Shown in pieces: positions 22,927-49,869 of a DNA stretch of 51,697 bases. A model generated the notes under the pieces. The model saw nothing but the letters and a program-made list of their open reading frames with translations. It did no database searches and had not been told where the DNA came from. The position numbers and the translations under genes are program-made. The number at the start of each line of letters is the position of its first letter. The first letter of the stretch is position 1. The DNA is taken from assembly GCA_001767435.1 (NCBI GenBank), contig MEKT01000097.1:1-51697 (forward strand). Direction: 5' to 3'. The stretch is from Acidobacteria bacterium RIFCSPLOWO2_02_FULL_65_29 (GTDB lineage: Bacteria; Acidobacteriota; Vicinamibacteria; Vicinamibacterales; CAVVIG01).

Positions 22927-23040
22927 CGCGTTGCGTCGGCACTTCCGGCGCCTTCGCACTCGCGTCGGCGCCGTTTCGTGCTCCGGGCGGCGGTCTGCTA
23001 TAGTTGGGGCACTTTCGCACGCCCAACCACGGGAGCCACG

Positions 23041-24489: not shown

Positions 24490-24824
24490 CGCATCTCAAA
24501 GCGGTGAACCGGAAAGCCAATCGGGTAACGGACTACGTGCGAGGGGAGAAAGACGGCGACGTCGTCGCGCTGCAGCAGCAGCCCGCGCAGCCCCACATTC
24601 CGCTCGGGTGCTCGCTGGCGTTCTCGCCGGGCTGGGAGGCGGATTCAACCGGCGGCACCGCCGGGCTGTGCCAGCCGGTCGAGCGCGACCTCTTCGACTG
24701 CCATCTCGGGTGCTTCTGGCCGGCCCACGTGCCCGACCAGTTGAACCACGCGCCCAGCTGGACGAGCCAGTGCGCCGCGGCCCAGAAAGACTGGCGCAAG
24801 CTGGATCTCGTGTTCCCGGGCTGA
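24486..24824 (+). CDS. qhpC: QHNDH gamma subunit precursor (CTQ- and thioether-containing)
   Basis: 112-residue precursor of the catalytic subunit. A leader of roughly 30-35 residues is removed by QhpE. With Cys42 set as mature Cys7, every modified position of the characterised enzymes is kept: Cys42-Glu51, Cys62-Asp68 and Cys76-Asp84 for the thioethers, and Cys72-Trp78 for the cysteine tryptophylquinone. The tail DWRKLDLVFPG also matches the family. An additional Cys96 is not one of the known crosslink positions. GTG start at 24486. An 84-bp gap with a double hairpin follows before qhpA. Confidence 0.95.
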   Translation: MTHLKAVNRKANRVTDYVRGEKDGDVVALQQQPAQPHIPLGCSLAFSPGWEADSTGGTAGLCQPVERDLFDCHLGCFWPAHVPDQLNHAPSWTSQCAAAQKDWRKLDLVFPG

Positions 24825-24848
24825 GCAGCGAAACACGCCCGTCGATCC

Positions 24849-24903
24849 GTAGGCCGGGTCCTTCGGACCCGGCATCACCGGCGGGTCCAAGGACCCGCCC
24901 TAC
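24849..24903. repeat. REP-like double hairpin between qhpC and qhpA
   Basis: GTAGGCCGGGTCC-TTC-GGACCCGGC is followed by a second stem GGCGGGTCC-AA-GGACCCGCC and CTAC, so the whole 55-bp unit begins GTAGG and ends CCTAC. There is no poly-T, so it is not a standard terminator. The spacers at 66-140 and 17459-17533 carry related GTAGG...GGCGGGTC...GACCCGC...CTAC sequence. It may stabilise the upstream mRNA and raise gamma-subunit output. Confidence 0.75.
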
Positions 24904-24908
24904 GCGTC

Positions 24909-26711
24909 ATGAGCCTTCTACCCATGCCTAATATTTCTCGATGGTTGGCGATTGGCGTCATCTCAGCGACGGCGGTGCTGCCGCTCGTGGCGGCTCCTCA
25001 GCAGACGCCTGCCGCTCCGGGGCCCCCAGCGCAAGGGCAGCGGGGTGGCGCGGCCGCGGCGACCGACGAAGGCATTCCGGTGACGGACGCCGAGGTCGTG
25101 AAGGCATGCGGCAGCTGCCACGTCCCCGACGACAAGCAGCGGATGACGCGCATCTCGTACCGGCGCGCCACGCCCGAGAACTGGGAGCTGACGATTCGCC
25201 GGATGATGTCGCTCAACAACGTCCAGATCACGCCGGAGGTGGCGCGCCGCGTCATCAAGTCTCTCTCCGACTCGCACGGTCTCGCCCCGGAAGAGGCGCG
25301 GCCCGTGATGTTCGAGCCCGAGCGGCGCATGGTCGACTTCACCTACTCCGACAAGGAGACCAACGATCTCTGCAGAAGGTGCCACTCGATCGGCCGCGTG
25401 CTCAGCGAGCGCCGGACCAGGGACGAATGGAACGGGCTGATCGCGATGCACCGTTATTACTATCCGGGCATCGACGGTGGGTCAGGCGGGTTCCGCCGCG
25501 GAGGACCGGGAGGTGGCGCGGCTGAGGCCGGCGCGGCCAGAGGCCGCGGAGGAGACGGCGGCCGTGGCGGCGAGAACCTGCAGCCGGTGGACCGGGCCCT
25601 CAACAATCTCGTTGGCGCCTTCCCGCTGATCTCGCAGGAGTGGACCTCATGGTCGGCCGCGATGCGGACGCCGAGGCTGGCCGGCCGCTGGGCGCTTTCC
25701 GGATACGAAATCGGTAAAGGGCCGGTCTTCGGGCAGGTCACGATTTCCGAGCGGCCCGACGCGCCCGACTCGTTCCTCACCGACGGCCGGTTCGTCTACG
25801 CGAGGAGCGGCCAGGCCGTCCCGCGGCGCAGCCGCGCCATCGTCTACACCGGATTCCAGTGGCGCGGCCGATCGGCTGACACACCCACCGATCCAGGCAC
25901 GTGGCGCGAGGTGGCCTTCATCGAGCGGAACGGGCAGGAGATCAAGGGTCGCTGGTTTACGGGCGCGCACGACGAAACGGGGATCGACGTCACGTTGCGC
26001 CGGGTTTCGAGCGATCCGCTCGTGACGGGCACCGACGTGAGCTCGCTCAAGACTTCGTCGACGGCGCAGCGGGTGCGCATTTACGGCGCCAACCTGCCCG
26101 AGCGCGTCACGCCGGCCGACATCGACTTCGGACAGGGCGTCAGGGTGTCGCGCGTGGTCAGCGCGTCGGCCGATATGCTCGCGGTCGACGTGGACGTCGC
26201 GGCCGGCGCGCGCATGGGCCCTCGCGACCTTTCCGTGGGGGGCTCGACCAGGCCCGACGCGCTCGTCGTGTACGGCAAGATCGACGGTATCAAGGTGACG
26301 CCGCAGGCCGGCATGGCGCGTGTCGGCGGCGCGGTTTTTCCGATTCGGACGGAGCAGTTCGAGACCCGCGGCGTCAGCAACGGGCCGGACGGCAAGCCCG
26401 GCAGCGCCGATGATCTCGATCTGGGGGCGGTCGACGCCCGATGGAGCGTCGAGGAGTACACGGCGACCTTCAAGGACGACGACATCAAGTTTGTCGGCGA
26501 GCTGTCGCAAAGCGGGCTGTTCGTTCCGAATGTCGACGGCCCGAACCCCAAGCGCTCGGGCAACCGCAACAACATCGGAGACGTCTGGATCGTGGCGTCC
26601 TTCGCTCCGCCGGGCGCCGATCCGTCCGCGAAGCCGTTGCGCGCGAGGGCGCATCTGCTCGTGACCGTGCCTATATACATGGACTGGGATTCACGAGAGG
26701 TTGGACGATGA
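24909..26711 (+). CDS. qhpA: QHNDH alpha subunit (diheme cytochrome c)
   Basis: The 600-residue periplasmic subunit passes electrons from the CTQ of the gamma subunit to external acceptors. A signal peptide lies within about 1-30 (ATG 24909, or 24924). Two c-heme motifs are CGSCH at 67-71 and CRRCH at 155-159. Beta-barrel/Ig-like domains follow (TGFQWRGRS, VRIYGANLPERVTPADIDFG). A Gly/Arg-rich stretch at about residues 193-232, between heme domain and barrels, is unusual. The gene overlaps qhpB by 4 bp (ATGA). Confidence 0.92.
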   Translation: MSLLPMPNISRWLAIGVISATAVLPLVAAPQQTPAAPGPPAQGQRGGAAAATDEGIPVTDAEVVKACGSCHVPDDKQRMTRISYRRATPENWELTIRRMMSLNNVQITPEVARRVIKSLSDSHGLAPEEARPVMFEPERRMVDFTYSDKETNDLCRRCHSIGRVLSERRTRDEWNGLIAMHRYYYPGIDGGSGGFRRGGPGGGAAEAGAARGRGGDGGRGGENLQPVDRALNNLVGAFPLISQEWTSWSAAMRTPRLAGRWALSGYEIGKGPVFGQVTISERPDAPDSFLTDGRFVYARSGQAVPRRSRAIVYTGFQWRGRSADTPTDPGTWREVAFIERNGQEIKGRWFTGAHDETGIDVTLRRVSSDPLVTGTDVSSLKTSSTAQRVRIYGANLPERVTPADIDFGQGVRVSRVVSASADMLAVDVDVAAGARMGPRDLSVGGSTRPDALVVYGKIDGIKVTPQAGMARVGGAVFPIRTEQFETRGVSNGPDGKPGSADDLDLGAVDARWSVEEYTATFKDDDIKFVGELSQSGLFVPNVDGPNPKRSGNRNNIGDVWIVASFAPPGADPSAKPLRARAHLLVTVPIYMDWDSREVGR

Positions 26712-27835
26712 AGCCACGTACTTGCCTCGCGATGGTTGCGCTCGTCGCGCTCACGGGCGCGTTTGTCTCGGCCCAGCCGCAGACGCCCCGCCTCACCGGC
26801 GGGAACGGGACGCTGTACATCGGCGGCTATCCCAACGTGATCTGGATCATCGACGAGGCGACGGAGAAGGTCGCCGGAACCATTCAGACCAAGACCGGCA
26901 TTCCCCGCCGCCTGACGCTCTCCCGCGATCTGAAGCGCTTCTACAACATCGATGCGACCAACGAGTACGTGGAGGTTCTCGACATCGCGTCGCGAGCCAC
27001 CATCGATTCCTTCAGGCTGACCGAGGGCAACAAGCGGGTCCGTATTGCCTCGCTCGAGCCGGATCCGAAGCATCAGTACCTGATGATGATCACGCGGACC
27101 GCCACCAGGCAGCGCGATCGCGTGGAGATCGGCGCCTCCGAATTGCAGCAGTACGACCTGAAAGAGCACAAGATCATCCGGACGGTGCCGTGGCCCGACG
27201 GCCAGGAGCGCGACCAGGCGAACCTGATGTTCTCGCCTGACGGCAAGCTGCTCTACTTCCTCGGGAACGAGATCCTCATCTTCGAGACGGAGAACTTCAC
27301 CCAGGTCGACAAGTGGGACCTGTCGAGCCTCGAGGAAGGCCTCGGTCAGGTCAGCGTGACCTTCGGCGGGTTTGGCGGGCTGGACTCGGTGAACGACGAG
27401 CCCGGTTTCCTGACGACCACGCTGACGGTCGACGACCCGGTGCAGCACCGGCGCATGATGGGCGTCGCGCGCATCGACCTCGTGAAGAAGGATCTGGAGT
27501 TCTACACCATGGGACCGGCGGGCGGCGTGAATTTCGTGCTCGCGCCGGACAGGAAACGCGGATACGGCCTCGAGTCCACCGTCGGCCGCTATCAGTTCTG
27601 GACGTTCGACCTCGAGCAGCGAAAAGTGATCTCCCGCGCGGAATTCGACGGGCGGCCGCGGATGTCGCTCAAGACGAGCTCGAACGGGAGGATTCTCTAC
27701 ATCTACAACGCCGGCAACACGATCGATCTCTACGACGCGGCGACGTACAGATACCTGCGCACCATCACGCTCGACGGCGACGTGACAACGGGGTTTTACG
27801 TCGTGCCCAGGCAGGCGGCCACGGCGAAGCCCTGA
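26708..27835 (+). CDS. qhpB: QHNDH beta subunit (seven-bladed propeller)
   Basis: The 375-residue exported protein has a signal at about 1-22 (ALVALTGAFVSAQ). Propeller strands follow: LYIGGYPNVIWIIDEATEKV, YNIDATNEYVEVLDIASRA, FSPDGKLLYFLGNEILIFETE, RILYIYNAGNTIDLYDAATY. Length and pattern fit the QHNDH beta subunit, which helps form the active-site cavity around CTQ. ATG 26708 overlaps the qhpA stop. Confidence 0.92.
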   Translation: MKPRTCLAMVALVALTGAFVSAQPQTPRLTGGNGTLYIGGYPNVIWIIDEATEKVAGTIQTKTGIPRRLTLSRDLKRFYNIDATNEYVEVLDIASRATIDSFRLTEGNKRVRIASLEPDPKHQYLMMITRTATRQRDRVEIGASELQQYDLKEHKIIRTVPWPDGQERDQANLMFSPDGKLLYFLGNEILIFETENFTQVDKWDLSSLEEGLGQVSVTFGGFGGLDSVNDEPGFLTTTLTVDDPVQHRRMMGVARIDLVKKDLEFYTMGPAGGVNFVLAPDRKRGYGLESTVGRYQFWTFDLEQRKVISRAEFDGRPRMSLKTSSNGRILYIYNAGNTIDLYDAATYRYLRTITLDGDVTTGFYVVPRQAATAKP

Positions 27836-27950
27836 GCGCGCAGAATACCGCCAGAGGTCGGCGCGGACTACGACGCGAATCGGATTTCATCTTTCGATCC
27901 GAGACCGGCAGGAGCCGTCGCTCCGCGACGCACCCTCGAATCCGTGGCGG

Positions 27951-27980
27951 TTTCTCTGCGTCCTCTGCTGGCTCTGCGTT
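27951..27980. repeat. Degenerate TCTGCG dispersed repeat
   Basis: TTTCTCTGCG TCCTCTGCTG GCTCTGCGTT is a short dispersed element of a type I recognise from intergenic regions of many environmental bacteria. It fills part of the 182-bp gap 27836-28017 between qhpB and the next gene. No other feature is seen in that gap. Confidence 0.4.
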
Positions 27981-28017
27981 TGACGTGGTCTTCGTCGCTT
28001 TCGACAAGGAGCGAGTT

Positions 28018-29112
28018 ATGAAAGTCGCGCTCGTCCTCGCTGCGTCTCTCTTCGCGGGTGTGCTCTCCAACGCGACGCTCGCCAGGACCGACGAATCGGT
28101 CTCGTGGGACGCAAAGGGCGCCGCGGCGTACCTGGATGGACGGCAGGCCTGGTGGCTCACCTGGCCCTCCGCGGCGCGCGACCACGATACGGCCTGCGTA
28201 TCGTGTCACACGGCGCTTCCATACGCGCTCGCCCGCCCTCTGCTTCGCGCCGCGTTGAACGAGCGCGGCCCCTCGCCGAGCGAAGCGAAGCAGATGGACC
28301 AGATCGTGAAGCGCGTCAGAGCGTGGGGGGACATGGCCCCGTGGTATCCGGATCAAACGCGCGGCCTTCCCAAGACCGCGGAATCGCGCGGCGTCGAGTC
28401 GGTCATCAACGCCGTGGTCCTCTCTCGCAGGGACGCCGCGGACGGCGTGTTGAGCGCTGACGGGCGTCAGGCGTTTTCCAACCTCTGGGCCCAGCAGATG
28501 CGGACCGGCGATCTGTCGGGCGCGTGGGCCTGGCTGACGTTCCGCCTCGAGCCGTGGGAAGGCGCACAGTCCGCGTACTTCGGCGCGGCGCTTGCGGCGG
28601 TCGCCGTCGGGAGCGCGCCCGGCGGCTACGCGTCGAGCGCCGATATTCAACCAAACGTCGCGCTCTTGCGCGGCTATCTGACGAAGCAGTTCGAGCACCA
28701 GCACACGCTGAACCGCCTCATGTTCCTGTGGGCGTCGGCGAAGCTGACCGGCGTCGTGACGCCGGAGCAACGCGACGCCGTGGTCGCCGAGGTGCTCGGC
28801 AAACAGCGGAGTGACGGCGGGTGGGGCACGGCGTCGCTCGGCCCGTGGCAGCGCGTCGATGGCACGGCGCTCGACACGGCGAGCGATGGCTATGCGACGG
28901 GCCTGGCAGCATTCGCGCTGCAGCAGGCTGGGCTGCCGTCAACGCACCCGCAGGTGAAGAAAGGCCTCGACTGGCTCGTCGCGCATCAGGACAAGACGAC
29001 AGGGCGGTGGCCGGCTTCGTCGTTGAACAAACAACGTGATCCCGAGTCGGACGCGGGCCGATTCATGAGCGACGTGGCGACGGCGTACGCGGTGCTGGCG
29101 TTGACGCCCTAG
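28018..29112 (+). CDS. Exported single-heme protein with terpenoid-cyclase (alpha/alpha-barrel) repeats
   Basis: 364 residues. A signal at about 1-22 (MKVALVLAASLFAGVLSNATLA) is followed by one c-heme motif, CVSCH at 60-64. The rest resembles squalene cyclase/prenyltransferase helical repeats with QW-type motifs (KQRSDGGWGTASLGPWQRVD, GYATGLAAFALQQAGL, HQDKTTGRWPAS). It is not part of the characterised qhp set, yet it sits between qhpB and qhpF on the same strand. It is periplasmic, so it could be an electron acceptor or assembly factor for the dehydrogenase; that is inference. ATG 28018 follows AAGGAG. Confidence 0.8.
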   Translation: MKVALVLAASLFAGVLSNATLARTDESVSWDAKGAAAYLDGRQAWWLTWPSAARDHDTACVSCHTALPYALARPLLRAALNERGPSPSEAKQMDQIVKRVRAWGDMAPWYPDQTRGLPKTAESRGVESVINAVVLSRRDAADGVLSADGRQAFSNLWAQQMRTGDLSGAWAWLTFRLEPWEGAQSAYFGAALAAVAVGSAPGGYASSADIQPNVALLRGYLTKQFEHQHTLNRLMFLWASAKLTGVVTPEQRDAVVAEVLGKQRSDGGWGTASLGPWQRVDGTALDTASDGYATGLAAFALQQAGLPSTHPQVKKGLDWLVAHQDKTTGRWPASSLNKQRDPESDAGRFMSDVATAYAVLALTP

Positions 29113-29148
29113 ACCTCGGAACAAGAGGCGTGCCGCCACGCGCCGGCG

Positions 29149-29488
29149 TCAACGGAGACAGCTTGCGTCGAGCATCGCCTGCAACGCCGGATTCTCGAGG
29201 CGCACGTCGCATCGACCGAGAAACCTGCGCGCAAAGGAAATCCATCTGTTCCCGCGCTTTCGGATCAGGCAACCGTACATCGCACCGAAGATACTCGAGC
29301 AATTCGGTGGAGCGCCGTAGCACCAGCTCGATACGTCGTCCGCTTTCCGGAATGGTCGGCTCGACTCGTCGGGTTCCCACAACCCGCGGGAGAGTGTCCA
29401 CGGCATCAAGCAGAATGACATTCGCATCTCCCAGCGCGATCTGATGGTCGACGACTTGGGCTATTCGCGACAGAGGATCGAAACGCAA
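29149..29488 (-). pseudogene. Possible small minus-strand gene with a frameshift
   Basis: One minus frame from TTG 29488 reads naturally (FDPLSRIAQVVDHQIALGDA, then RRIELVLRRSTELLEYLRC) until about 29225. A second frame then reads naturally to a stop at 29149 (RRFLGRCDVRLENPALQAML). Together they would make about 112 residues if one frameshift is bridged. It has no recognised family. It fills the gap between the heme protein and qhpF, back to back with qhpF. The evidence is only composition and continuity. Confidence 0.35.
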
Positions 29489-29498
29489 CTCGAGTCGA

Positions 29499-31223
29499 AT
29501 GCCCGCTGAATTTCGGCGCGCGCTCGCGTATCTCGTTCCCTACTGGCAGCGGCTGGCGCTCGTCGTGCTGCTGAGCGGGCTCAATACGGCCCTCTCGCTC
29601 ACGCTGCCTTACCTCTCGAAAACGCTCGTCGATTCGGCGCTTATCGGGAGGAGTCTGCCCGCCCTCTACTCGACCGTCACGCTCTTCGCGCTGGCGTCCG
29701 CGGCCGGCTTCGCGCTCACCGCGATTATCGGGCTGCGTTACACGCGCGTGTCGGCGGATGTCCTGTTCGACATGCGGCTGGCCGTATACCAACATCTGCT
29801 GCGCCTCTCGCCGCGATTCTACGCGCGCACGCCCCTCGGCGACATCCTCGCGCGCGTGAACAACGACGTCGGCGAGATCCAGCGCGTGGCCGCCGAATCG
29901 CTGCTCGCGTGGGTGGGCAATGCCTTGTTCCTTGTCGGCAGCATCGCCGCGATGCTCTGGCTCGACCTGCGCCTCGCGTTCGCGGGCCTCGCGCTCGTGC
30001 CCGTCGCCGCCTGGGTGCTCGCCCGGACGCGCGTGGCGCTCACCGGGCACATCAAGGCCATGCGGGAGGCGAGCGCGGCGATCGGCAGCTTTCTGATCGA
30101 AACGATCCAGGCCGTACGCCTCATCGTGACGTCGAACGCGCAGGCGCGCGAGAGCGAGCGGTTCCGCGCGACCAACGCGACGTTTGTCCGCGCGCTGATG
30201 TCCATGCAGCTCTGGTCGTATCTGTCGGGGAGCGCGCCGGGCCTGGTGCTGTCGGCGGGATACGTGCTGGTCTTCGTGTACGGCGGCAGTCGCGTGATCG
30301 CCGAGACGCTGACGCTGGGAACGTTCATCGCGTTCATGGCCTACTACATGCGCCTCTTTCAGCCCGTCCAGGCGCTGATGGGCCTCTACTCGAGTCTGGC
30401 GACCGTGCGGGTGTCGCTCGCGCGCGTCCACGAGCTCCTCGACACACCGCCCGATGTCGTGGAAGCGCCCAACCCCCAGCGTCTGACTGGGGTCGAGGGC
30501 GCGATCGAGTTCGATCGCGTGAGCGTCGATCTCGGTCGAGGGCAGATCCTGCGCGCGGTTTCGTTCGCGGTCGCCCCAGGAGAAACCGTGGCCCTGGTCG
30601 GACCGAGCGGAAGCGGCAAGTCCACGATCGCCGACCTGCTGGTGCGGCTCCTCGATCCCGACGAGGGCATGGTGCGGCTGGACGGCGTCGATCTCAAGAG
30701 CCTGTCGCTCGAGGATCTGCGCCGGCACGTTGTGCTCGTCGATCAGGAGCCGGCGCTCCTGCACGCGAGCATCGAGGAAAACGTCCGCTACGCCCGTCCC
30801 GACGCGGCCGACGAGGAGATTCGGCGAGCGGTGTCGGCTGCCGGCGCCGACGAGATCATCGCTCGCCTGCCCGATGGCCTTCGTACGATCGTCGGCGAGC
30901 GTGGCGCGGCGCTGTCGGCCGGCGAACGCCAGCGCGTGGCGATTGCCCGCGCGCTGCTGACCAGTCCGGCCGTGCTCGTCCTCGACGAGCCTACCGCGGC
31001 GCTCGATCCGATCTCCGAGCGACAGGTGCTCGCCGGGTACGAGCGGGCGATGCGCGGCCGGACCACCGTCCTGATCACGCACCATCTGTCGCTCGCGTCA
31101 GCGGCGGACCGGGTCGTCGTGCTCGGTGAGCGGGGGATCCTCGAGGAGGGAGAGCCGGCGGCGCTCCAGGCCAGGGGTGGCGCGTTCACCGCGCTCTTCG
31201 CAACGGCAAGTCGGACAAGTTGA
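29499..31223 (+). CDS. qhpF: ABC exporter of the qhp cluster
   Basis: The 574-residue half-transporter fuses membrane and ATPase domains. Six transmembrane helices lie in about residues 15-300. The nucleotide-binding domain has Walker [10 protein letters not shown], signature LSAGERQ, Walker B VLVLDEPT and the switch His in LITHH. In the studied qhp operon, QhpF is the ABC protein needed to move the processed gamma subunit to the periplasm. The identity as QhpF rests on context with qhpC, qhpE and qhpG; sequence alone says type-I ABC exporter. Confidence 0.85.
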
Positions 31224-31386
31224 CAGTTGACAGTCAACAGTTGACAGTGCGAGCCAGCTCGGCATTCAGGAGCTTCTTCTTTTCGTGCCTTCATGGTTTC
31301 GTGGCCTTCGAACTGTGAACTGTCGACTGTGGCGGTCGACGGCTGCGAACTGCCGACTGTTGACTGTTAACTGTTGACTGTCAACT
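31220..31386. repeat. Heptamer array between qhpF and qhpE
   Basis: TTGACAG-type 7-bp units on the left (31220-31248) and AACTGTT/GACTGTT units, roughly their reverse complement, on the right (31310-31386) flank a TTCGTGCCTTCATGGTTTCG core. The RNA could fold into an imperfect hairpin. The array runs to within 3 bp of the qhpE ATG, so no normal ribosome site is present there. Confidence 0.75.
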
Positions 31387-31388
31387 AC

Positions 31389-32090
31389 ATGTATCTCAAC
31401 GAATACACCGGGCGCGGCGTACGCGTCGCCATCGTGGACAGCGGCGTGCATGCCGCGCACCCGCACGTGCAGGGCGTCGAGCAGGGCGTGGCCATCCGCG
31501 CCGACGGGTCGCTCGACGACGACTTCGTGGACCATCTGGGCCACGGGACCGCGGTCGCGGCGGCGATTCGAGAAAAAGCTCCAGACGCGCGCCTCCTGGC
31601 GATCAAAGTGTTCTGGCGGGCGCTCGCGACCGACGTGTCGGTGCTCGTCCGCGGCATTGACGAGGCGTCGGAGCGCGGGGCGGCCGTCATCAACCTGAGC
31701 CTCGGCACGTCCAATCTTGCACACCGGCCGCTCGTCGAGGCTGCCGTCCGGCGGGCGAGCGTCCGTGGCGCATGTATCGTCGCTGCCGGCGAAGATCAGG
31801 GCGTGTGCTGGCTGCCGGGCGCCATCGACGGTGTGGTGCCTGTCACGCTCGACTGGCACTGCCCTCGCGAGGAGTACCGCGTGATCTCGAGGGCCGGCCG
31901 ATCGGGCGTGGCCGCGTCGGGGTACCCGCGAGACATCCCGGACGTTCCACGCGAACGCAATCTCAAAGGCATCAGCTTTGCGGTGGCGAACGCGTCCGGC
32001 TTTCTGGCGCGGGCGTACGAGGCGGTGCCGGGCGCCACGGTGACGGACCTTCTCGCGATCCTCGAAGGCGCGATGGACAGGCTGCCGTGA
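31389..32090 (+). CDS. qhpE: Subtilisin-like leader protease of the QHNDH gamma subunit
   Basis: 233-residue S8 serine protease without a signal peptide, hence cytoplasmic. The triad is Asp17 in IVDSGV, His52 in LGHGTAVAA and Ser196 in GISFAVA. QhpE cleaves the leader of the crosslinked gamma subunit. It is much shorter than secreted subtilisins and has no propeptide, as in characterised QhpE. ATG 31389 was chosen; a TTG at 31374 lies within the repeat array. The stop overlaps the qhpG start (GTGA). Confidence 0.9.
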   Translation: MYLNEYTGRGVRVAIVDSGVHAAHPHVQGVEQGVAIRADGSLDDDFVDHLGHGTAVAAAIREKAPDARLLAIKVFWRALATDVSVLVRGIDEASERGAAVINLSLGTSNLAHRPLVEAAVRRASVRGACIVAAGEDQGVCWLPGAIDGVVPVTLDWHCPREEYRVISRAGRSGVAASGYPRDIPDVPRERNLKGISFAVANASGFLARAYEAVPGATVTDLLAILEGAMDRLP

Positions 32091-33580
32091 CGAAACGGTC
32101 GAGCAGCTCGGAGGTTGACGTCGTCGTGATCGGCGGCGGCCCAGCCGGAGCCACGGCCGCCGCGCTGCTGGCCTCGTGGGGCCGATCGGTGGCCGTGATG
32201 CACGGCGACTCGGGCGCGCCGAGCCTCGCCGAGTCGCTTCCCGCCAGCACGCGAAAGCTGCTGCGCTTTCTGGGCCTCGCCGAGATCGTCGACGCCGCGG
32301 GGTTTCATCCGAATCGCGGCAACATCTCCCGCTGGGCCGGCAAGGAGGCCGTGGCGGCGACCGATGCCGCCGGCTATCACGTGTCCCGCGCGAGATTCGA
32401 TCGGCTGCTGCGCGACCACGCGCGCGCCCAGGGAGCGGTCGTGATCGAAGGCCACGCGCGACGCGTCGATCTCGCCAATCCCGTCACGTCCGAATGCGTA
32501 GTATCGTCGCAGCGAGACTCGTACCGCGGCCGCTTCGTGCTCGATTGTTCGGGCCGTGCCGGCGTGATCGCCGGTCGCGGGCTTCGCCGGGTCCGCGCCG
32601 GCTATCGGACGCTGGCAGTCGCCGCCGAGTGGCACTGCGATGGATGGCCGGCACGTGAGCGCACGCACACGATCGTGGACAGCTACCGCGACGGCTGGGC
32701 CTGGTCGGTGCCACTGTCAGGGACAAGGCGCCAGTGCACGGTGATGATCGACGCAGGTCGCACGACCGTGCGAAAGGCCGGCCTGGCAAGCCTCTACGGC
32801 CGGGAACTGCGGAAGGCCGTCAGCATCAGCGCGCGCCTCGCGGGCGCCAGGCAGATCAGCCGGCCGTGGGCGTGCGACGCGTCGGTGTACGACTGCGTGA
32901 GGGCGTTCGAGGGCGGGGCGCTTCTCGTCGGCGACGCCGCGTCGTTTGTGGAGACCCTCTCGTCGGGCGGCGTGAAGAAGGCGTTGTCCTCCGCCTGGCG
33001 CGCGGCCGTCGTGGTCAATACCTGCCTGGACACGCCCGAGATGCTGTCGGCCGCGTTCGGGTTTCACGACCGGCGCGAACGGCTCGTCTACGACGAATAC
33101 CAGAGGTACACAGCGGCGTTTTTCCGCGACGCGGCCAGTGTCTACGACGATCTCTTCTGGTCCGCGCGCGCGGCTGGATCTCCGGATCGGGCGGGTCGAC
33201 CGGGCGATGATCTCGCAGACCGCGATCTGGCGCGCGATCCAGGGATCCGTTCAGCCTTCGAGAGACTTCGACGCGCACACACCTTGCGTCTCGTGCCGGC
33301 ACCGTCGCTGAGCTTCGGGAAGACGGCGGTCGTCGAGGGGCGCTACCTTGTCATGCGTGAGGCGGTCGTCGTGCCGGGCGTCGACGCCCCCGTACGGTTC
33401 GCGGCCGGCGTGAACCTGCCCGAGCTGATCCGGATCGCCGCCGGCGGCGGAGACGTCGCCTCTGTGCTCGAGACGTACCATCAGCAGGTTGGCAAGGTCG
33501 ATCCACGCAATCTGCTCTTAGGACTCTCGTTCCTCATCGCCCGCGGCGTGCTGATCGACGGGGCGAAGGGTGAAACTTGA
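32087..33580 (+). CDS. qhpG: FAD-dependent monooxygenase for CTQ formation
   Basis: 497-residue cytoplasmic flavoprotein. The FAD-binding motif VVVIGGGPAGATAAALLA is near residue 12, and GGALLVGDAASFVETLSSGG is the second FAD motif. It is distantly related to flavin halogenases/monooxygenases. QhpG dihydroxylates the Trp of the gamma subunit that becomes cysteine tryptophylquinone; here this would be Trp78 of QhpC. The GTG start at 32087 overlaps qhpE by 4 bp. It ends the cluster; a heptamer array follows its stop. Confidence 0.9.
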   Translation: MTKRSSSSEVDVVVIGGGPAGATAAALLASWGRSVAVMHGDSGAPSLAESLPASTRKLLRFLGLAEIVDAAGFHPNRGNISRWAGKEAVAATDAAGYHVSRARFDRLLRDHARAQGAVVIEGHARRVDLANPVTSECVVSSQRDSYRGRFVLDCSGRAGVIAGRGLRRVRAGYRTLAVAAEWHCDGWPARERTHTIVDSYRDGWAWSVPLSGTRRQCTVMIDAGRTTVRKAGLASLYGRELRKAVSISARLAGARQISRPWACDASVYDCVRAFEGGALLVGDAASFVETLSSGGVKKALSSAWRAAVVVNTCLDTPEMLSAAFGFHDRRERLVYDEYQRYTAAFFRDAASVYDDLFWSARAAGSPDRAGRPGDDLADRDLARDPGIRSAFERLRRAHTLRLVPAPSLSFGKTAVVEGRYLVMREAVVVPGVDAPVRFAAGVNLPELIRIAAGGGDVASVLETYHQQVGKVDPRNLLLGLSFLIARGVLIDGAKGET

Positions 33581-42025: not shown

Positions 42026-42733
42026 TCACACGCGCCGCTTGGTAACCGTGGACGGGAGGGCACCCAGGATTCGGAATGTCATCTTCACAGAGCCGACCCG
42101 GATCTCGGCGCCCTCCTCGAGCGCCACAGGCAGCGTGACGGGCTCCCCGTTGAGGGACGTTCCGTTCTTGCTCTCCAGATCTTCGACCGTTGCCTTTCGG
42201 CGCAGAACGACGATTCGGGCATGATGACGCGAGACAGTGCTGGAATCGAGGCGGACGGCACAGTCGCGATCGCGACCCACCAAGCTCGAACCTTCGGAGA
42301 GCAGCCACTCGCGGCGCTTCGAGATCAGGCGAGGGCCTGACCCAGCGAGCTGGGGAACGTCGACGTCGACCGCAGGTGCCGGCCGTGCATCACCATGAAA
42401 CGCGTATCCGTACCGCGGGGCGGTTCGAATGTATCGCGGGGCCCGCGCCTGGTCGCCCAGCGCGGCTCGGACTTCGGCCACCAGGTTGTGCAGGCTCGCG
42501 TCGGAGACGAAGGTTTCTGGCCACAGGTGCTCGAGGAGTTCGGACTTCGACACCGCCTCCGGCCGCCGATCGAGAAGCAACTCCAGGAGCTGGAAGGCCT
42601 TGGGCGAAAGCGCCGTGGCGCGTCCATGGCGAAGAACCAGACGCCGGCCCGTGTCGAACTCGCACTCTCCAAAGACGATGCGCACAAGAGCCCTTGAAAG
42701 AATTAGAGTTTCCTGAGAACTCCGAGAGGACAT
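42026..42733 (-). CDS. Winged-helix (OmpR/CadC-type) plus FHA-domain regulator
   Basis: 235 residues. A trans_reg_C winged helix at about 18-113 (LSPKAFQLLELLLDRRPE, SDASLHNLVAEVRAALGD, RYIRTAPRYGYAF) is followed by an FHA domain at about 140-222 with Gly153-Arg154, SRHHA at 168-172 and SKNGTSLNG at 189-197. FHA domains bind phosphothreonine, so this is likely a transcription factor reading Hanks-kinase phosphorylation. It lies divergent (40 bp apart) to the exported kinase-like gene. Frame-compatible starts upstream of 42733 would overlap that gene. Confidence 0.85.
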   Translation of the reverse strand: MSSRSSQETLILSRALVRIVFGECEFDTGRRLVLRHGRATALSPKAFQLLELLLDRRPEAVSKSELLEHLWPETFVSDASLHNLVAEVRAALGDQARAPRYIRTAPRYGYAFHGDARPAPAVDVDVPQLAGSGPRLISKRREWLLSEGSSLVGRDRDCAVRLDSSTVSRHHARIVVLRRKATVEDLESKNGTSLNGEPVTLPVALEEGAEIRVGSVKMTFRILGALPSTVTKRRV

Positions 42734-42773
42734 CCGCGTTGACCGCCGTGTATTTTGACACAGGGAGTTCTCT

Positions 42774-43589
42774 ATGATCCTGTCCGCGTCGCGAAGACTT
42801 GCCGTTCTTCTGGTGTGCCTGCCGGCTCTGTTGGGTTTAACGGCGCCCAGCTCGGAACAACCCGCTTCGACCATACGTCAGGACCCTGGCGCGAGAGCAT
42901 GGGTCGGTCGCTATCAGGAGATCGAAGAATACCTGAGGACCGCGGAGTGCGTAAATATGCAACCGATGGCCTCGAACTCGAGCCCAACGCGCTGCACGCT
43001 GCCGCCGGGCGGGCTGGTTGCTCGTATGGCCTGGAAACCCCAGCCCCCCGGCGTCTATCGCGGTTTCTGGGAGAGCTACAAATCCGAGATCGCCGCCTAC
43101 GAGCTCGACAAACTGCTGAAGATGGATATGGTGCCGCCAGCCGTCGAACGGGAGCTCCAGGGCAACAAAGGTTATGCCGTCCTGTGGGTGGAGAACATCG
43201 TCCAGTTAAAGGCCGACACGTCGCCCCCAGGGTCAAAGCGGGCCGATTGGGACAGGCAGATGGCACGCGCCAGCATGTTTGACAACCTCATTGGGAACGC
43301 GGACAGAAACCTCAACAACGTACTGGTTGATGCCGCGTGGAACCTGATTCTGCTTGACCATACTCGCGCTTTCCGGTCCAGCATAGAGCTGCCCCGTCCG
43401 CTGAACCGGATCGACGGAGCCTATTGGGACAGGGTGCAAGGGTTGACTCGCCAGGAGCTCGACGCGGCACTGGGCCAGTGGCTCGACGAAAGCCAGATCA
43501 CGGCGATCTTGGATCGCCGCGAGAAAATGAGAGCCGAGACCAACAGACTGGTTTCCGAAAAAGGGTCGGCGGCGGTCGTGTTGCGCTAA
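42774..43589 (+). CDS. Exported PI4K/FAM20-like kinase-fold protein 1
   Basis: The 271-residue product has a signal peptide at about 1-25. Kinase-like landmarks: Lys88 in ARMAWKP (candidate ATP Lys), Glu105 in KSEIAAYELDKLL (candidate helix-C Glu), hinge-like AVLWVEN, catalytic-loop-like Asp177 and Asn181/182 in NADRNLNN, and metal Asp195 in LILLDHTRAF. The D-R-x-x-N-N...DH arrangement resembles PI3/4-kinases, HipA and FAM20 kinases rather than Hanks kinases. The paralog at 46403 keeps all of these. Usually such proteins are annotated hypothetical; kinase activity is inference. Confidence 0.7.
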   Translation: MILSASRRLAVLLVCLPALLGLTAPSSEQPASTIRQDPGARAWVGRYQEIEEYLRTAECVNMQPMASNSSPTRCTLPPGGLVARMAWKPQPPGVYRGFWESYKSEIAAYELDKLLKMDMVPPAVERELQGNKGYAVLWVENIVQLKADTSPPGSKRADWDRQMARASMFDNLIGNADRNLNNVLVDAAWNLILLDHTRAFRSSIELPRPLNRIDGAYWDRVQGLTRQELDAALGQWLDESQITAILDRREKMRAETNRLVSEKGSAAVVLR

Positions 43590-43617
43590 GGTCTGGCCGC
43601 GTGCGGCGGGGCCGAGG

Positions 43618-46368
43618 ATGATCACGAAGACGATCTCGCATTACGAGATAGTGGAGCTCGTCGGCGAAGGCGGGATGGGCACGGTGTACCGCGCCGTCGA
43701 TACGCGCCTGGGTCGGCCGGTCGCCATCAAGCTGCTGCGAAGTGAGATCGCTGGCAACGGCGAGAGTAAGAAGCGGTTCATCCACGAGGCCAGGGCCGCT
43801 TCCGCCTTGAACCATCCCCACATCACGACGATCTATGACATTGGGCAGGACGGCGGCGTGGATTTCATTGCGATGGAGTACGTCGCCGGCCAGTCGCTGG
43901 CCCGCCTACTTGGCCGCACCGGACTCAAGATTGAGGATGCGCTCACGTACGCGATTCAGATCGCGGATGCACTGGCAGCCGCTCACGCTGTTGGAATCGT
44001 GCATCGCGACCTCAAGCCGGCCAATATCATGGTCAGCGACAAGGGATCGATAAAAGTTCTCGACTTTGGCCTCGCGAAGTTGACCGAGTCGGTTCGTTCT
44101 GAGCCGCTCGACGAGCACGTCACGACAACAAATGTGGAGTCCCGCGGACGCCCGCAGACCGAGGAAGGGACGATCCTCGGAACCGCAGCCTACATGGCGC
44201 CCGAACAGGCGGAGGGAAAGCCGACCGATGCGCGATCGGACGTCTTCTCGTTTGGTGCGGTGCTCTACGAGATGGTCACCGGCCGTCGTGCATTCGACGG
44301 CGAAACGAAGATGTCGACCCTGGCGGCGATCCTGGCGAAAGAGCCGGAACGTCCGAGCGACGTGATCCCGGGGTTGTCGCGGGATCTCGAGAAGCTGATC
44401 GTCCGCTGTCTCCACAAGAAACCCGAGCGTCGCTGGCAGGCGACAGCCGATCTCAAGCTTGCGCTCGAGGAACTGCGGGAAGATCTCGAGTCGGCCCAAC
44501 CAGCACTAGCTTCCCGCGGCGCGTCGATACCGGCCCGTCGGTCCAAGGGGCGGTTGACGTTGGCGGCCGGAGCGATCCTGGCGACGCTCGGGGCCTTGAC
44601 GTTCAGCGTGTGGTGGCGGGCCTCGCCGACCGAGCTGGGCGCCAACGGCCAGCCGTCTCTCAGGCGGCTCACTTCAGATGTGGGCTGGACCGATTATTCG
44701 GCCATCTCACCCGATGGAAGAATCCTGGCGTACGCCTCCGACCGCAGCGGCGAAGAGAATCTCGACATCTGGGTCCAACAGATTTCAGACGGCTCTCCGG
44801 TCAGGTTGACGCGCCATGCCGCAGATGACGTCGATCCGTCGTTCTCTGCCGACGGGAGCAAGATCGCTTTTCAATCCAGCCGGCTGGGAGGGGGAATCTA
44901 CGTCATTCCCACGCTGGGCGGCGAAGAGAGACTCCTCGCGAAAGAAGGCTTTTCTCCACGGTTTTCCCCTGACGGAACGTGGATCGCCTACGGTGTCGCG
45001 AAAGCGCCCGGCGTTGGACTCTACGTGGCCCCGGCGGCCGGTGGACCGGCCACGCCGGTGGCCGCGGATTTCTACCTGGCCCGGGCCCCGGTGTGGTCAC
45101 CGGACGGTCGCCATTTGCTGTTTTGGGGCCAGCGCGACCGTAACGCCACGCCGGAGAACAACGTCGATTGGTACGTGGCGCCAGTGACAGGCGGTTCGCC
45201 GGTAAGAACGCAGGCGCGGAATGTTCTCCTTCGTGAAGGATTTCAAGCGTTTCATGGACTACCGACAGCCGACGGGTGGGTCGGCACCGGAAACCGCCTC
45301 GTTTTTCATGGGCGGGTCGGGGACTCGTCAAGTACCTGGCAGGTGGCCATTTCCCCGAGGAACTGGCAGGTCAGCGAGGCGCCGCGGCGGGTGACATTCG
45401 GCACCACAGACGAATCGTCCGCCTCAGTGGCCGTGGACGGGCGACTCGTATTCACCAGTCGAACGATCGGCGCGGATATTTGGGGCCTTGCGATCGACGC
45501 AGACGACGGCCGGGTGCAGGGTCCCCTGAAACGGATCACCCAGGATCTCGCCGATGATTACGATCCGACGCTGTCGGCCGATGGTGGAGCGTTGGCATTC
45601 CGTTCACGAAGAGCAGGGCGGTTCGACGTCTTCTTGAGAAACCTGGGGACCGGCGAGGAAACCGTCCTGACCCAGACTCCAGCAGATGACTCCCCGGTCA
45701 TCAGCCCTGATGGAACGAAGGTCGCGTACTCGTTCCGGCAGAATGGCAAGACGCCTATCTTCGTGGTCGCGGCGAGCGGAGGAGCGCCCGAACTCGCGTG
45801 CGACGATTGCGGCGAGGTGGAGCAGTGGGCACCCAATGGACGCGAGCTACTGTTTGTCACGGCGGATGACCCTTCCGGGGTCGGCCTCTTGAACGTGGGT
45901 TCCTCACAGCATCGGGAATGGCTCAAACATCCCGGCTACGGAATCTTCAATGCACGCTTGTCCTCGGATGGACATTGGGTGTCCTTCAATGCCAGACCAA
46001 ATAGATATGCGCCTGCTCAAGTGCTCATTGCGAAGGTACAAGACTCGATCGTTTCGGGCGAGAAGGAGTGGATTGTGGTGACCGAGGATGGTGAGGCGCC
46101 AAACTGGTCACCACGCGCCAGGCTTCTGTACTTCTGGTCGAATCGAGACGGCTCTCCATGCCTCTGGGCACAGCCTCTCGATCCGACGACAAAACGGCCG
46201 ATCGGGTCGCCGCTGGATATCCAACACTTCCACAGCAGAGGGTTATCGTGGAGGAACCTGTATCTGGGCACACCGGATATCGCCGTTGCCCCCGACAAGA
46301 TCGTATTCAACCTAGGCGAGCACACGGGCAACATCTGGATCACGGATCTCCCACAGATCCCGGATTAG
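43618..46368 (+). CDS. Hanks-type Ser/Thr kinase with WD40-like (PD40) extracytoplasmic propeller
   Basis: 916 residues. The cytosolic kinase at about 8-290 has GEGGMGTVYRA, Lys38, HRDLKPAN (Asp131), DFG 149-151 and GTAAYMAPEQ. One transmembrane helix is at about 313-333 (LTLAAGAILATLGALTFSVWW). The outer part contains PD40/TolB-like propeller repeats (SPDGRILAYASDRSG, SADGSKIAFQSSR, SADGGALAFRSRRAG). It is probably a receptor kinase sensing an extracytoplasmic ligand. It lies 28 bp after exported kinase-like protein 1 and 34 bp before its paralog, in one apparent operon. Confidence 0.92.
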   Translation: MITKTISHYEIVELVGEGGMGTVYRAVDTRLGRPVAIKLLRSEIAGNGESKKRFIHEARAASALNHPHITTIYDIGQDGGVDFIAMEYVAGQSLARLLGRTGLKIEDALTYAIQIADALAAAHAVGIVHRDLKPANIMVSDKGSIKVLDFGLAKLTESVRSEPLDEHVTTTNVESRGRPQTEEGTILGTAAYMAPEQAEGKPTDARSDVFSFGAVLYEMVTGRRAFDGETKMSTLAAILAKEPERPSDVIPGLSRDLEKLIVRCLHKKPERRWQATADLKLALEELREDLESAQPALASRGASIPARRSKGRLTLAAGAILATLGALTFSVWWRASPTELGANGQPSLRRLTSDVGWTDYSAISPDGRILAYASDRSGEENLDIWVQQISDGSPVRLTRHAADDVDPSFSADGSKIAFQSSRLGGGIYVIPTLGGEERLLAKEGFSPRFSPDGTWIAYGVAKAPGVGLYVAPAAGGPATPVAADFYLARAPVWSPDGRHLLFWGQRDRNATPENNVDWYVAPVTGGSPVRTQARNVLLREGFQAFHGLPTADGWVGTGNRLVFHGRVGDSSSTWQVAISPRNWQVSEAPRRVTFGTTDESSASVAVDGRLVFTSRTIGADIWGLAIDADDGRVQGPLKRITQDLADDYDPTLSADGGALAFRSRRAGRFDVFLRNLGTGEETVLTQTPADDSPVISPDGTKVAYSFRQNGKTPIFVVAASGGAPELACDDCGEVEQWAPNGRELLFVTADDPSGVGLLNVGSSQHREWLKHPGYGIFNARLSSDGHWVSFNARPNRYAPAQVLIAKVQDSIVSGEKEWIVVTEDGEAPNWSPRARLLYFWSNRDGSPCLWAQPLDPTTKRPIGSPLDIQHFHSRGLSWRNLYLGTPDIAVAPDKIVFNLGEHTGNIWITDLPQIPD

Positions 46369-46402
46369 CTGAGATAGGCGGCGATTCTTCGAGGAGGTGC
46401 AT

Positions 46403-47230
46403 ATGCGACATCGAGTCGAATTCGCAGGGCTGGCGACCGGATTGGTCATCCTCAGCGCCGTCACCACGCTTGGCCTCGGGCTCCCCCAGTCTTTCGACGC
46501 TGTACAAGGCGAGGATGTCGAGCGCTTCTTGACCCAGGCGAAGTTCGTGCGGTTAGGAAAGACACTCGGCGGCGTGACGCTGTCGAGACAAGCGATTCTC
46601 GAGCTCGATGGCGTCACCCGCTTCGGCGTCTTCAAGACCATCGATGAAAGCCGATCGGGGTACACGCAGCTCTCCAGAGGCGGGGAGATCAACTTTCAAG
46701 ACAGCTGGCGCACGGAGATTCCGGCCTACGAGCTGGACAAACTTCTCCGGCTGCGAATGGTGCCTGTCACCGTCGAGCGGACGTACAACGGCGCCACGGG
46801 TTCGCTCCAGGCTTGGGTGGATCTCGGAATGTCGGAAGCCGAGCGCCTGAAGAAAAAGATTGGCGCCCCGGACGTCGAGGCGTGGAATCGACAGATCCAC
46901 AAAGTACGAATGTTCGACAATCTCATCTACAACACGGACCGCCATTCGAACAACATCTGGATCTCCAAGGATTGGAACGTGATCCTCATCGACCATTCCA
47001 GGGCGTTTCGTAACTTTGGACAGTTGCGCGCTGAAGGGGACCTCACTCGATTCTCTCGGTCGCTCCTCGAGGCGATGGAGAAGCTTGACAGACCAACGCT
47101 GATCAAGCTCGTGAGTCAGTACCTCACCCCTTATCAGATCGACGCCTTGCTGCAGCGGCGCGATCTCATTGTTCAACGGGCACGGCGTCTCGCCGCGGAC
47201 AAAGGCGAAGCGGCCGTGCTGTTTCCTTGA
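46403..47230 (+). CDS. Exported PI4K/FAM20-like kinase-fold protein 2
   Basis: The 275-residue paralog of 42774-43589 has a hydrophobic signal at about 8-28. Landmarks: Lys78 in RFGVFKTI, Glu105 in RTEIPAYELDKLL, hinge-like LQAWVDL, Asp179 and Asn183/184 in NTDRHSNN, and Asp197 in VILIDHSRAF. The NTDRHSNN...LIDH pattern is closer to canonical PI4K/HipA-like catalytic loops than copy 1. ATG 46403 follows a strong GAGGAGG site. It may phosphorylate exported protein or lipid targets, or be a pseudokinase; ATP supply outside the cytoplasm is an open question. Confidence 0.72.
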   Translation: MRHRVEFAGLATGLVILSAVTTLGLGLPQSFDAVQGEDVERFLTQAKFVRLGKTLGGVTLSRQAILELDGVTRFGVFKTIDESRSGYTQLSRGGEINFQDSWRTEIPAYELDKLLRLRMVPVTVERTYNGATGSLQAWVDLGMSEAERLKKKIGAPDVEAWNRQIHKVRMFDNLIYNTDRHSNNIWISKDWNVILIDHSRAFRNFGQLRAEGDLTRFSRSLLEAMEKLDRPTLIKLVSQYLTPYQIDALLQRRDLIVQRARRLAADKGEAAVLFP

Positions 47231-47277
47231 CATCGCCGCGACGCGCACGGTGCGGGAGAAGGGCGTCGGCGACCTAC

Positions 47278-49869
47278 TCAGTTGGGAAGCCTCGCGCGCC
47301 GTAGGATCTCCTGGAACCGCGGATCGTCACCGAGCCTGTCATTTGAAAACGGGTCTGCGGCGGCGCCGTCCAGCTGAGGGTCGCGTAGCTCGACGGCTCT
47401 CGACAGCCATTCCAAAGCGAGGTCCTTCTCGCCCGCGTGCAAATACGGGAGGAACACATCGATCGGGGCCACGTGCACTCCGCTCATTCCTGATGCGAGA
47501 AGGTCCGCGACCTGGCGCATGGCTCTCGGGTACCCCCCCTCCGAGTAGCCCCGCACAAGAGCGTCTTTGACCTCGCGTCCGTAAAACCCAATACACCCCT
47601 CGGCGCCCTTCAGCGCCTGTTCAGGTCTGCCCGTGATGTTGAAGGCGTGCCAGAGGACACAGTGAGCACCTATCAGCTCCGGTGACTTTCTGAGCGCGTT
47701 TTGCGACTGTACGATGGCCTCGTCGTAGCGACGGACGAAATACAAATTCATTCCGTAGCTGGCCTGAAAGTTGGCATTGAGCGGATCCAATTGCACGGCC
47801 AACTCGATCTGAGCCATCGCTTCCTCGGGACGCTTGAGCGCCATCAGCACCCCAGCGTATCCGTCGCGCGCGCCGGCAAGATTGAGGTCGAGCGCGATGG
47901 CTCGCCGGTACTCCCGTTCACTGGTCTCCCAGTCCCAATCGGCCCGGGCGATTCCGCCCAATACGGCGTGAGCGAGCGCCAATGTACCATCGAGCTCGAG
48001 GGCCTTCACCGCGGCTGCCTTCGCCTTGGGCGTGGCTTCGCTGGGCGCCACGTATCCCGTGAAACTCCGGAGGTTCCAAACGATTGCGATACCCGCGTAG
48101 GCGGCCGCGTAGCCGGGATCCTTCGCCAGCGCCACCTCGAAGTACTCGAGCGCAACGTCGAGATCCGACCGCGTCCGCCTCTGCATGTGGAAGCGGCCCT
48201 TGAGGTACGCTTCGTACGCCTCGGGGTTGACGGGGCGGGCGCTGGCCAGCCGCGTTTGCTCAGCGGGAAGGAGCGTCAGTCTCAGCGACCCCGCAACCGA
48301 TCGTGCGACGTCACTCTGTAGCGCCAGAATGCCGGCGAGCTCGCGGTCGAAGCTGTCGGTCCACCGCTGCGTCTGATCGCGCACCTGAATCAACGTGGCG
48401 CTGATGCGCACGCGACTGCCCTCTCGGCGAGCGCTCCCTTCCAGCACGTAGTCCACTCCGAGCTCGCGGCCGATCTGATCGATCGCGATGTCGCGCTTCT
48501 TGTACCGCATGGACGATGTCCGCGCGATCACGCTGAGGCGCTGCGGGTGCAGGCGGCCAAGCTGCGTGATCATCTCGTCGGTGAGGCCGTCGCTGAAGTA
48601 CTCCTGCTCCGGATCGCCCGTCAGGTTCTCGAAGGGCAGCACGGCCAGCTTGATCGGATCCGCAGCGGATGGGCTGCCACCGAGCCGCTCCCGCAGGCCG
48701 CCGACATTCACTCCTATCAGAAGCGCCGCGACAGCGAGTCCTGTAGCGGCCGCCGCCACTCCAGCACGTCGCCTGACCCGCGCGCGCCAGCCAGCCCTTG
48801 GTGGTACCGAACCCGCGTCAATCGCTTCGAGCGCCGCGCGCACTTCGCGCGCGTGCTCGTAGCGCCGCTCGGGCCCCTTCTCCAGACACCGCTCGATCAC
48901 GGACCTCAGCGCAACGGGTGTGGCGTCCGGCAACGGCGCGGGCGCATCTCGCAAGATCGAGGAGAACAGCTCCGGGGTCGTAGGGGCCGCGAAGGGCTTG
49001 GCGCCGCTCACCATCTCATACAGCAGCACGCCGAGCGCCCAGATGTCCGTGCGCGCATCCGTGACGCCGCCGCGTACCTGTTCCGGCGCCATCGCGTACG
49101 GCGTGCCAACGGCGACGCCGGCTGGCGCCAGCGAGGCTATTGTTGTGGCGTCGGCCAGCAGCGCGTCATCGCGCCGCGCCAGCCCGAAATCGACGATCTT
49201 CAACCGCCCAGCTGCCGTGACCATCGCGTTGGCCGCCTTGAAGTCGCGATGCACGACGCCATTGTCGTGCGCGTACGCGAGCGCGTCGGCGGCCTCGGTG
49301 CCGTACCGCATGGCCTCCTCGAATGGCAGGGCGGAGCCAGCGAGCCGATCGCTCAGCGGCTGTCCATCCACGTACTCCATCGCGATGAACGCACAGCCGT
49401 TCGCTTCGCCGACTTCGTAGACGGCGCAAATGTTCGGGTGATTCAGCGCGGCGGCGTTGCGCGCCTCGCGCAGCAATTGGGCATGGGCCGTTTCGTCATC
49501 CACCGGCGCCCCCAAGACCTTGAGGGCCACCTGACGATGGAGGGTCGTGTCGTACGCGAGGAACACAACACCCGTTCCCCCGCGGCCGAGTGTCCGCTCG
49601 ATCTGATAGCTGCCCAGCTTGACTCCTGGCTCGAGTCCGGCGTGCAGGGGCTTTGAATTCTTGGTCAACCGATCGGCCACCGCGTCGGCGGCGGGCGCCA
49701 CGAGGAAGGCCTCGGCGCTCGCCCCGCGTGCCAGGAGCGAGTCGACCTCCCCGCGCAGCGCTTCGTCGCCGCTGCAAGCAGCGTCGAGGAAGGCGCGCCG
49801 CTCATCAACAGGGCGTTCAAGCGCTGCCTGATAGAGCCGCGAGATCCGCTGCCATCTGTCAGCGTCCAT
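47278..49869 (-). CDS. Hanks-type Ser/Thr kinase with TolB-like domain and TPR repeats
   Basis: 863 residues. An N-terminal helical segment at 1-70 (RWQRISRLYQAALERPVDERRAFL) is typical of acidobacterial kinases. The kinase at about 88-345 has GRGGTGVVF, Lys117, HRDFKAAN (Asp209; Phe and Ala replace the usual Leu and Pro) and DFG at 227-229. A transmembrane helix is at about 369-389. A CadC/FlgO-like TolB-N domain follows (LAVLPFENLTGDPEQEYFSDGLTDEM), then TPR units from about 535. Convergent with the exported kinase operon. Confidence 0.9.
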   Translation of the reverse strand: MDADRWQRISRLYQAALERPVDERRAFLDAACSGDEALRGEVDSLLARGASAEAFLVAPAADAVADRLTKNSKPLHAGLEPGVKLGSYQIERTLGRGGTGVVFLAYDTTLHRQVALKVLGAPVDDETAHAQLLREARNAAALNHPNICAVYEVGEANGCAFIAMEYVDGQPLSDRLAGSALPFEEAMRYGTEAADALAYAHDNGVVHRDFKAANAMVTAAGRLKIVDFGLARRDDALLADATTIASLAPAGVAVGTPYAMAPEQVRGGVTDARTDIWALGVLLYEMVSGAKPFAAPTTPELFSSILRDAPAPLPDATPVALRSVIERCLEKGPERRYEHAREVRAALEAIDAGSVPPRAGWRARVRRRAGVAAAATGLAVAALLIGVNVGGLRERLGGSPSAADPIKLAVLPFENLTGDPEQEYFSDGLTDEMITQLGRLHPQRLSVIARTSSMRYKKRDIAIDQIGRELGVDYVLEGSARREGSRVRISATLIQVRDQTQRWTDSFDRELAGILALQSDVARSVAGSLRLTLLPAEQTRLASARPVNPEAYEAYLKGRFHMQRRTRSDLDVALEYFEVALAKDPGYAAAYAGIAIVWNLRSFTGYVAPSEATPKAKAAAVKALELDGTLALAHAVLGGIARADWDWETSEREYRRAIALDLNLAGARDGYAGVLMALKRPEEAMAQIELAVQLDPLNANFQASYGMNLYFVRRYDEAIVQSQNALRKSPELIGAHCVLWHAFNITGRPEQALKGAEGCIGFYGREVKDALVRGYSEGGYPRAMRQVADLLASGMSGVHVAPIDVFLPYLHAGEKDLALEWLSRAVELRDPQLDGAAADPFSNDRLGDDPRFQEILRRARLPN

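Follow-up and report, generated by a model that had tools for sequence, protein, structure and literature searches.

Acidobacteriota encode a family of Fam20-like kinase-fold proteins, predicted to be exported, whose usual companion is an exported PPP phosphatase of the Shelph type. Two members, KA and KB, lie in the window (the whole stretch of DNA analysed, 51,697 nucleotides of contig MEKT01000097.1 from Acidobacteria bacterium RIFCSPLOWO2_02_FULL_65_29). A sequence-only reading of this DNA had placed them in a phosphosignalling circuit with a Hanks receptor kinase and an FHA regulator. The tie between the exported kinase family and an exported PPP phosphatase is a stronger and newer observation than that circuit. 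The conserved partner was missed by the sequence-only reading because it is absent from the window, and no phosphatase gene is found at the window locus itself. The features of this locus are as follows.

42026 to 42733, minus strand: OmpR-type winged helix and FHA regulator, EmbR-like without BTA, divergent from KA (Trans_reg_C, E-value: 4.4e-17; FHA, E-value: 8.9e-18)
42734 to 42773, no strand: intergenic gap of 40 bp between the divergent regulator and KA, presumed from the sequence to be a shared control region
42774 to 43589, plus strand: KA, putative exported Fam20-like kinase-fold protein of 271 aa (homology to the modelled KB, E-value: 2.6e-31); key residues K88, E100 (metal), E105, D177, N182 and D195
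43618 to 46368, plus strand: transmembrane Hanks kinase with six PD40/TolB-like repeats across the membrane (Pkinase, E-value: 1.2e-51; PD40, E-value: 2.4e-40)
46403 to 47230, plus strand: KB, putative exported Fam20-like kinase-fold protein of 275 aa from ATG 46403 (model, fold and profile searches); key residues K78, D100 (metal), E105, D179, N184 and D197
47278 to 49869, minus strand: convergent gene for a Hanks kinase with TPR repeats, likely a bystander (Pfam match; no conserved linkage)

All five genes were confirmed as window ORFs at the coordinates first assigned to them, and only the start of the regulator is amended: it is likely to be ATG 42733 rather than 42874, because the longer ORF would overlap KA. 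The apparent operon proposed for KA, the Hanks kinase and KB agrees with their layout: all three run on the plus strand, 28 and 34 bp apart (counting KB from ATG 46403, which has the Shine-Dalgarno sequence GAGGAGG upstream). The end of KB is separated by 47 bp from the end of the convergent Hanks-TPR gene, which had been counted as part of the set and is probably a bystander, its linkage not being conserved. The description of the middle gene as a Hanks kinase with an outer propeller domain holds, as the protein has a PF00069 match, one transmembrane segment (LTLAAGAILATLGALTFSVWW) and the six PD40 repeats; the Trans_reg_C and FHA matches likewise agree with the description of the divergent regulator. 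The 40-bp gap has no promoter consensus, promoter and terminator scans were no better than shuffles, and there is no Rfam match within the window. Elsewhere in the window, the ORFs at 22978-33580 look like a quinohemoprotein amine dehydrogenase cluster, with a SPASM radical SAM protein (22978-24489), a CxxCH subunit (24909-26711), a propeller subunit, an ABC exporter (29499-31223) and an FAD enzyme (31772-33580).

The fold of KB was predicted with AlphaFold (pLDDT 96.2, pTM 0.92). In VIA-align searches of the PDB the model is most similar to hydra Fam20 (Z 20.2), human Fam20C (Z 19.8) and Fam20A (Z 18.8). Fam20 structures score from 20.2 to 18.0 across 233-238 residues, PI4K2 18.2 and below, CtkA 15.5 and HipA about 11-12; the top Foldseek match is Fam20C (2.1e-8). 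A family profile made from an alignment of 90 homologs and run against PDB sequences gives the same picture (FAM20A, E-value: 4.3e-12; FAM20C, E-value: 2.4e-8; FAM20B, E-value: 5.5e-8; PI4K2A, E-value: 7.5e-5). Nematode Fam20 is also matched ahead of PI4K2, and the C-terminal helices are included in the alignment to Fam20. The fold and profile searches agree in placing Fam20 first, PI4K2 second, and CtkA and HipA lower. Among the four relatives that the sequence-only reading had suggested for comparison, Fam20C and PI4K2 are thus the near ones and HipA a lower one, while CotH is not seen among the 50 matches listed for the KB model, an absence that does not speak against a relationship. As KB recovers KA in a sequence search, KA is predicted by homology to have a fold of the same Fam20/PI4K2 type, and the earlier identification of two exported kinase-fold proteins of PI4K2/FAM20 type is supported.

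KA and KB stay below the cut-off of every Pfam and NCBIfam model. The two proteins score 15.1 and 14.4 bits with the Fam20 model PF06702 (cut-off 26.8), 24.8 and 25.1 bits with the PI3/PI4 kinase model PF00454 (cut-off 27.1; single-sequence E-value: 2e-5) and 16.9 and 19.3 bits with the HipA-like model PF20613 (cut-off 27). TIGR03843 (SCO1664) is matched at an E-value of 1e-8, far under its cut-off. PF06702 is matched by 12 of the 90 family members, with E-values as low as 0.00039. The conserved Fam20 disulfide cysteines are missing, KB having no cysteine and mature KA two. Because these proteins fall short of the Pfam cut-off and of the disulfides, they are described here as Fam20-like and are not claimed as members of Fam20.

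The motifs previously picked out in KA and KB (a Lys, a Glu, a D-R-x-x-N-N loop and a final Asp block) are present as described (KA: D177-R-N-L-N-N182 and LILLD195HTRAF; KB: D179-R-H-S-N-N184 and VILID197HSRAF), and they are conserved beyond chance. Over 187 non-redundant homologs the final Asp never varies, 169 keep the catalytic Asp and 159 the Asn. At the position of the Fam20C metal Glu, located from the Fam20A/C profile alignments, 184 have an acidic residue, and 159 retain Asp, Asn and Asp together with this acidic ligand. The loop residues are thus largely conserved as expected, but the Lys is not invariant: the Lys/Glu pair varies jointly (K-E in 86 of 187, Q-N in 60 and R-E in 20), and Gln replaces the nucleotide-binding Lys in 67. 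The Gln type requires a single change on the tree and so represents one event, not 60. This paired swap of Lys to Gln and Glu to Asn in the nucleotide site leaves the metal ligands in place. In KA and KB themselves the active site is fully intact (Lys, Glu, metal Asp/Glu, Asp, Asn, Asp). The two are true homologs (E-value: 2.6e-31), as their description as paralogs implies, but that label hides the fact that they fall in different deep clades; a recent KA/KB duplication is ruled out by the tree.

The kinase family occurs in 77 of 396 sampled Acidobacteriota genomes, often in several copies, and the best 80 loci of a scan of 85,000 species have almost only Acidobacteriota titles, many of them from Aminicenantes, Bryobacterales and Terriglobia. 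The window's genome has five copies, although within its own family only 6 of 27 genomes have the kinase. The window holds the second KA/KB pair of this genome, the other being on contig C204.

The long homolog ORFs are fusions in which the kinase-fold domain is joined to a calcineurin-like phosphatase preceded by a hydrophobic N terminus. The fused domain matches Pfam Metallophos (E-value: 4.7e-14) and the Shewanella phosphatase 1v73 (E-value: 3.3e-30). The closest solved structures to the partner phosphatase are of this Shewanella type (1v73, 2zbm and 2z72), and the full PPP signature is conserved. A phosphatase lies within 3 kb in 56 of 133 kinase loci, fused in 20, and only one locus has one further out. 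At the level of whole genomes, a strong phosphatase match is found in 63 of the 77 genomes with the kinase and in 5 of the 319 without it (Fisher test, 6e-53, with genomes treated without correction for shared ancestry and with a phosphatase profile built from kinase-linked members). Seen from the phosphatase, the distance to a kinase gene is 3 kb or less for at least 44 of 65 (31, 8 and 5 by three region sets), while 12 of 20 further phosphatase regions have no kinase within about 5 kb or before the contig end. The window's genome has exactly one such phosphatase, between the KB-like and KA-like genes on C204. This repeated fusion and adjacency suggests a bacterial system that adds and removes phosphate outside the cytoplasm.

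In 18 copies the catalytic Asp is missing (Cys, Ser, Leu or Gly instead) and Asp replaces the Asn. These copies form one clade of single origin. All 18 are fused to the phosphatase or less than 1 kb from it, and every locus with a degenerate copy holds one to three further copies, intact ones included. The degenerate copies are putative pseudokinases, although a nearby Asp could conceivably substitute; their occurrence beside intact copies recalls the Fam20A/Fam20C pair.

The best explanation of these data, to which a probability of about 0.6 is assigned, is that KA, KB and their relatives are extracytoplasmic Fam20-like phosphotransferases opposed by the phosphatase. As part of this explanation the family is predicted to act beyond the cytoplasm, either in the periplasm or on the cell surface. 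Export was scored by a simple hydropathy rule rather than a signal-peptide predictor: the N termini of KA and KB are hydrophobic, a strongly hydrophobic segment precedes the domain in 129 of 164 unfused homologs, and none lies inside the core. The proposed model is as follows. KA and KB would transfer phosphate there, and the Shelph-type PPP phosphatase would presumably strip the phosphate that the kinases add. In some lineages a single polypeptide would combine both activities. Elsewhere a degenerate kinase copy is attached to the phosphatase, near intact ones, which suggests an allosteric pseudokinase like that of the Fam20A/Fam20C pair. The window would hold a variant locus in which the place of the phosphatase is taken by a receptor kinase together with an EmbR-like FHA regulator. 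The middle gene of this locus encodes a membrane Hanks kinase whose TolB-like propeller faces the periplasm, and the winged-helix/FHA protein seems placed to read phosphothreonine on this kinase and to regulate the operon, much as EmbR works with PknH.

Two other functions for the family have to be weighed. The proteins could be exported glycan or lipid kinases, like Fam20B or PI4K2, sharing substrates with the phosphatase and with neighbouring PAP2 enzymes. Hydra Fam20, which heads the fold matches with PI4K2 next, has been described as a sugar kinase of Fam20B-like type (PMC5865150). In locus L006 the KA-like gene follows a gene for a PAP2 phosphatase, and related ORFs lie beside the kinase in L055, L062 and L063. 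However, PAP2 linkage is confined to a few loci, and the closest solved relatives of the partner phosphatase are named protein-tyrosine phosphatases, so a glycan or lipid substrate is considered rather unlikely. Still less probable, and indeed improbable outright, is use of the fold outside the cytoplasm for something other than phosphotransfer (AMPylation, polyglutamylation or scaffolding), with the proteins being pseudokinases. Kinase folds with such chemistry are known in SelO and SidJ; the joint replacement of Lys by Gln and of Glu by Asn throughout one large clade and the degenerate catalytic Asp of 18 copies would fit, but the 159 homologs with a complete set of Asp, Asn, Asp and acidic metal ligand, and the fully intact sites of KA and KB, argue for the phosphotransferase reading.

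The circuit of the sequence-only reading, in which the Hanks receptor kinase, the two secreted kinases and the FHA regulator form one evolved signalling system, depends on their linkage. The short gaps, single strand and divergent regulator seen in the window favour it, and PknH-EmbR is a precedent for an FHA regulator with a membrane Hanks kinase (PMC4601284). Co-directional Hanks neighbours are also found at loci L061, L153 and L228, and the arrangement recurs sporadically. FHA proteins recur as well, within 3 kb of 9 of the 133 loci, in another arrangement that is mostly a single repeated one. A Hanks kinase, however, is within 3 kb in only 5 of these loci; at 7 others the nearest one is more distant, and Pkinase is matched above its cut-off 57 times in the 5.5 Mb of the window's genome. 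Adjacency is therefore near background, conserved Hanks-kinase linkage is rejected, and a single evolved system is judged unlikely. For the regulator, a single close paralog exists in this genome, on contig C184. Because this sole close paralog also adjoins a Hanks/PD40 gene, the winged-helix/FHA and Hanks/PD40 proteins more likely form a unit with each other than with KA and KB. At the C184 locus (L188:3784-6484) the Hanks part of the PD40 protein is apparently truncated or frame-broken. In L077 (10788-12941), L082, L087, L156 and L183, an FHA protein faces the exported kinases at a distance of about 1.8 kb, in one shared layout; that of L077 is an FHA-GAF-SpoIIE-HATPase protein, and several such clusters are from Aminicenantes.

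Comparison with known systems shows what is shared and what is distinct. With Fam20 the bacterial family shares export, a kinase fold over nearly the whole KB model, C-terminal helices, and the Lys, the alpha-C Glu, the metal Glu/Asp five residues before it, the catalytic Asp and the final Asp. It also shares the pairing of putative pseudokinase and intact copies (Fam20A is a pseudokinase, Fam20B a xylosylkinase and Fam20C the Golgi casein kinase). Unlike Fam20, it has about 250 residues rather than about 385, an Asn after the DR loop, scores below the PF06702 cut-off and a fused phosphatase, and KB, having no cysteine, has no Fam20 disulfides. PI4K2 (PF00454) is similar in fold (Z 18.2) and in the sub-threshold Pfam match to its catalytic region, but KA and KB are shorter and predicted to be exported, and PI4K2 is more distant than Fam20 by both profile and fold. 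HipA, SCO1664 (TIGR03843) and CtkA have a related fold with structural scores lower than those of Fam20 (CtkA 15.5, HipA about 11-12). These kinases are not known to be exported by a signal-like N terminus. The spore coat kinase CotH is a bacterial kinase whose relationship to Fam20C has been pointed out before (PMC12189002), but KA and KB have no Pfam CotH match, and CotH has a spore coat role and, as far as found, is not paired with a PPP phosphatase. The partner phosphatase resembles Shelph PPP phosphatases in its GDxHG, GDxxDRG and GNHE motifs, its two His, its export and its best PDB match (1v73), and differs in being fused or adjacent to a kinase-fold domain. EmbR-PknH of M. tuberculosis likewise sets an OmpR-type DNA-binding domain with FHA beside a membrane Hanks kinase, whereas the window regulator has no Pfam match to the BTA domain of EmbR and the sensor of the window kinase is a PD40 propeller.

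Phosphorylation of proteins or glycans outside the cytoplasm is well known in animals and hardly described in bacteria. The present family supplies concrete testable proteins, single-chain kinase-phosphatase fusions included, and raises the question of the phosphate donor outside the cytoplasm. ATP is generally considered scarce in the Gram-negative periplasm, which makes the donor a problem for the exported-kinase reading. A paper on Fam20 evolution traces the family to sponges only, with bacteria unmentioned (PMC5865150), and literature searches, whose coverage left out most subscription journals, found no bacterial Fam20-phosphatase system. More tentatively, and with the odds slightly against it, Acidobacteriota may run exported reversible phosphorylation by Fam20-like kinases and Shelph phosphatases, one lineage having a phosphatase-bound Fam20A-like pseudokinase. 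The pseudokinase-kinase arrangement would then have arisen independently of vertebrates, and the bacterial family may lie near the root of animal Fam20.

A second exported kinase-like family was found upstream of the KA/KB-like pair on C204, where a protein of 599 aa (L007:4773-6569) has no Pfam match. Common to its homologs are an Asp...Asn loop of kinase type, a DFG motif and the family motif FYxDDP. The model of this protein (pLDDT 88) is most similar to CtkA (Z 14.8), followed by Fam20C (13.3), PI4K2 (12.5), CotH (12.2) and HipA (about 11), and its C-terminal part is Ig/FN3-like. Profile comparison of the Fam20-like and FYxDDP families gives only 9% probability, and a common origin is not claimed. 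The FYxDDP family is present in 35 of 199 sampled genomes. In L007 its gene has a weak Omp85 match as a neighbour; at L055, L062 and L063 PAP2-like genes adjoin it too.
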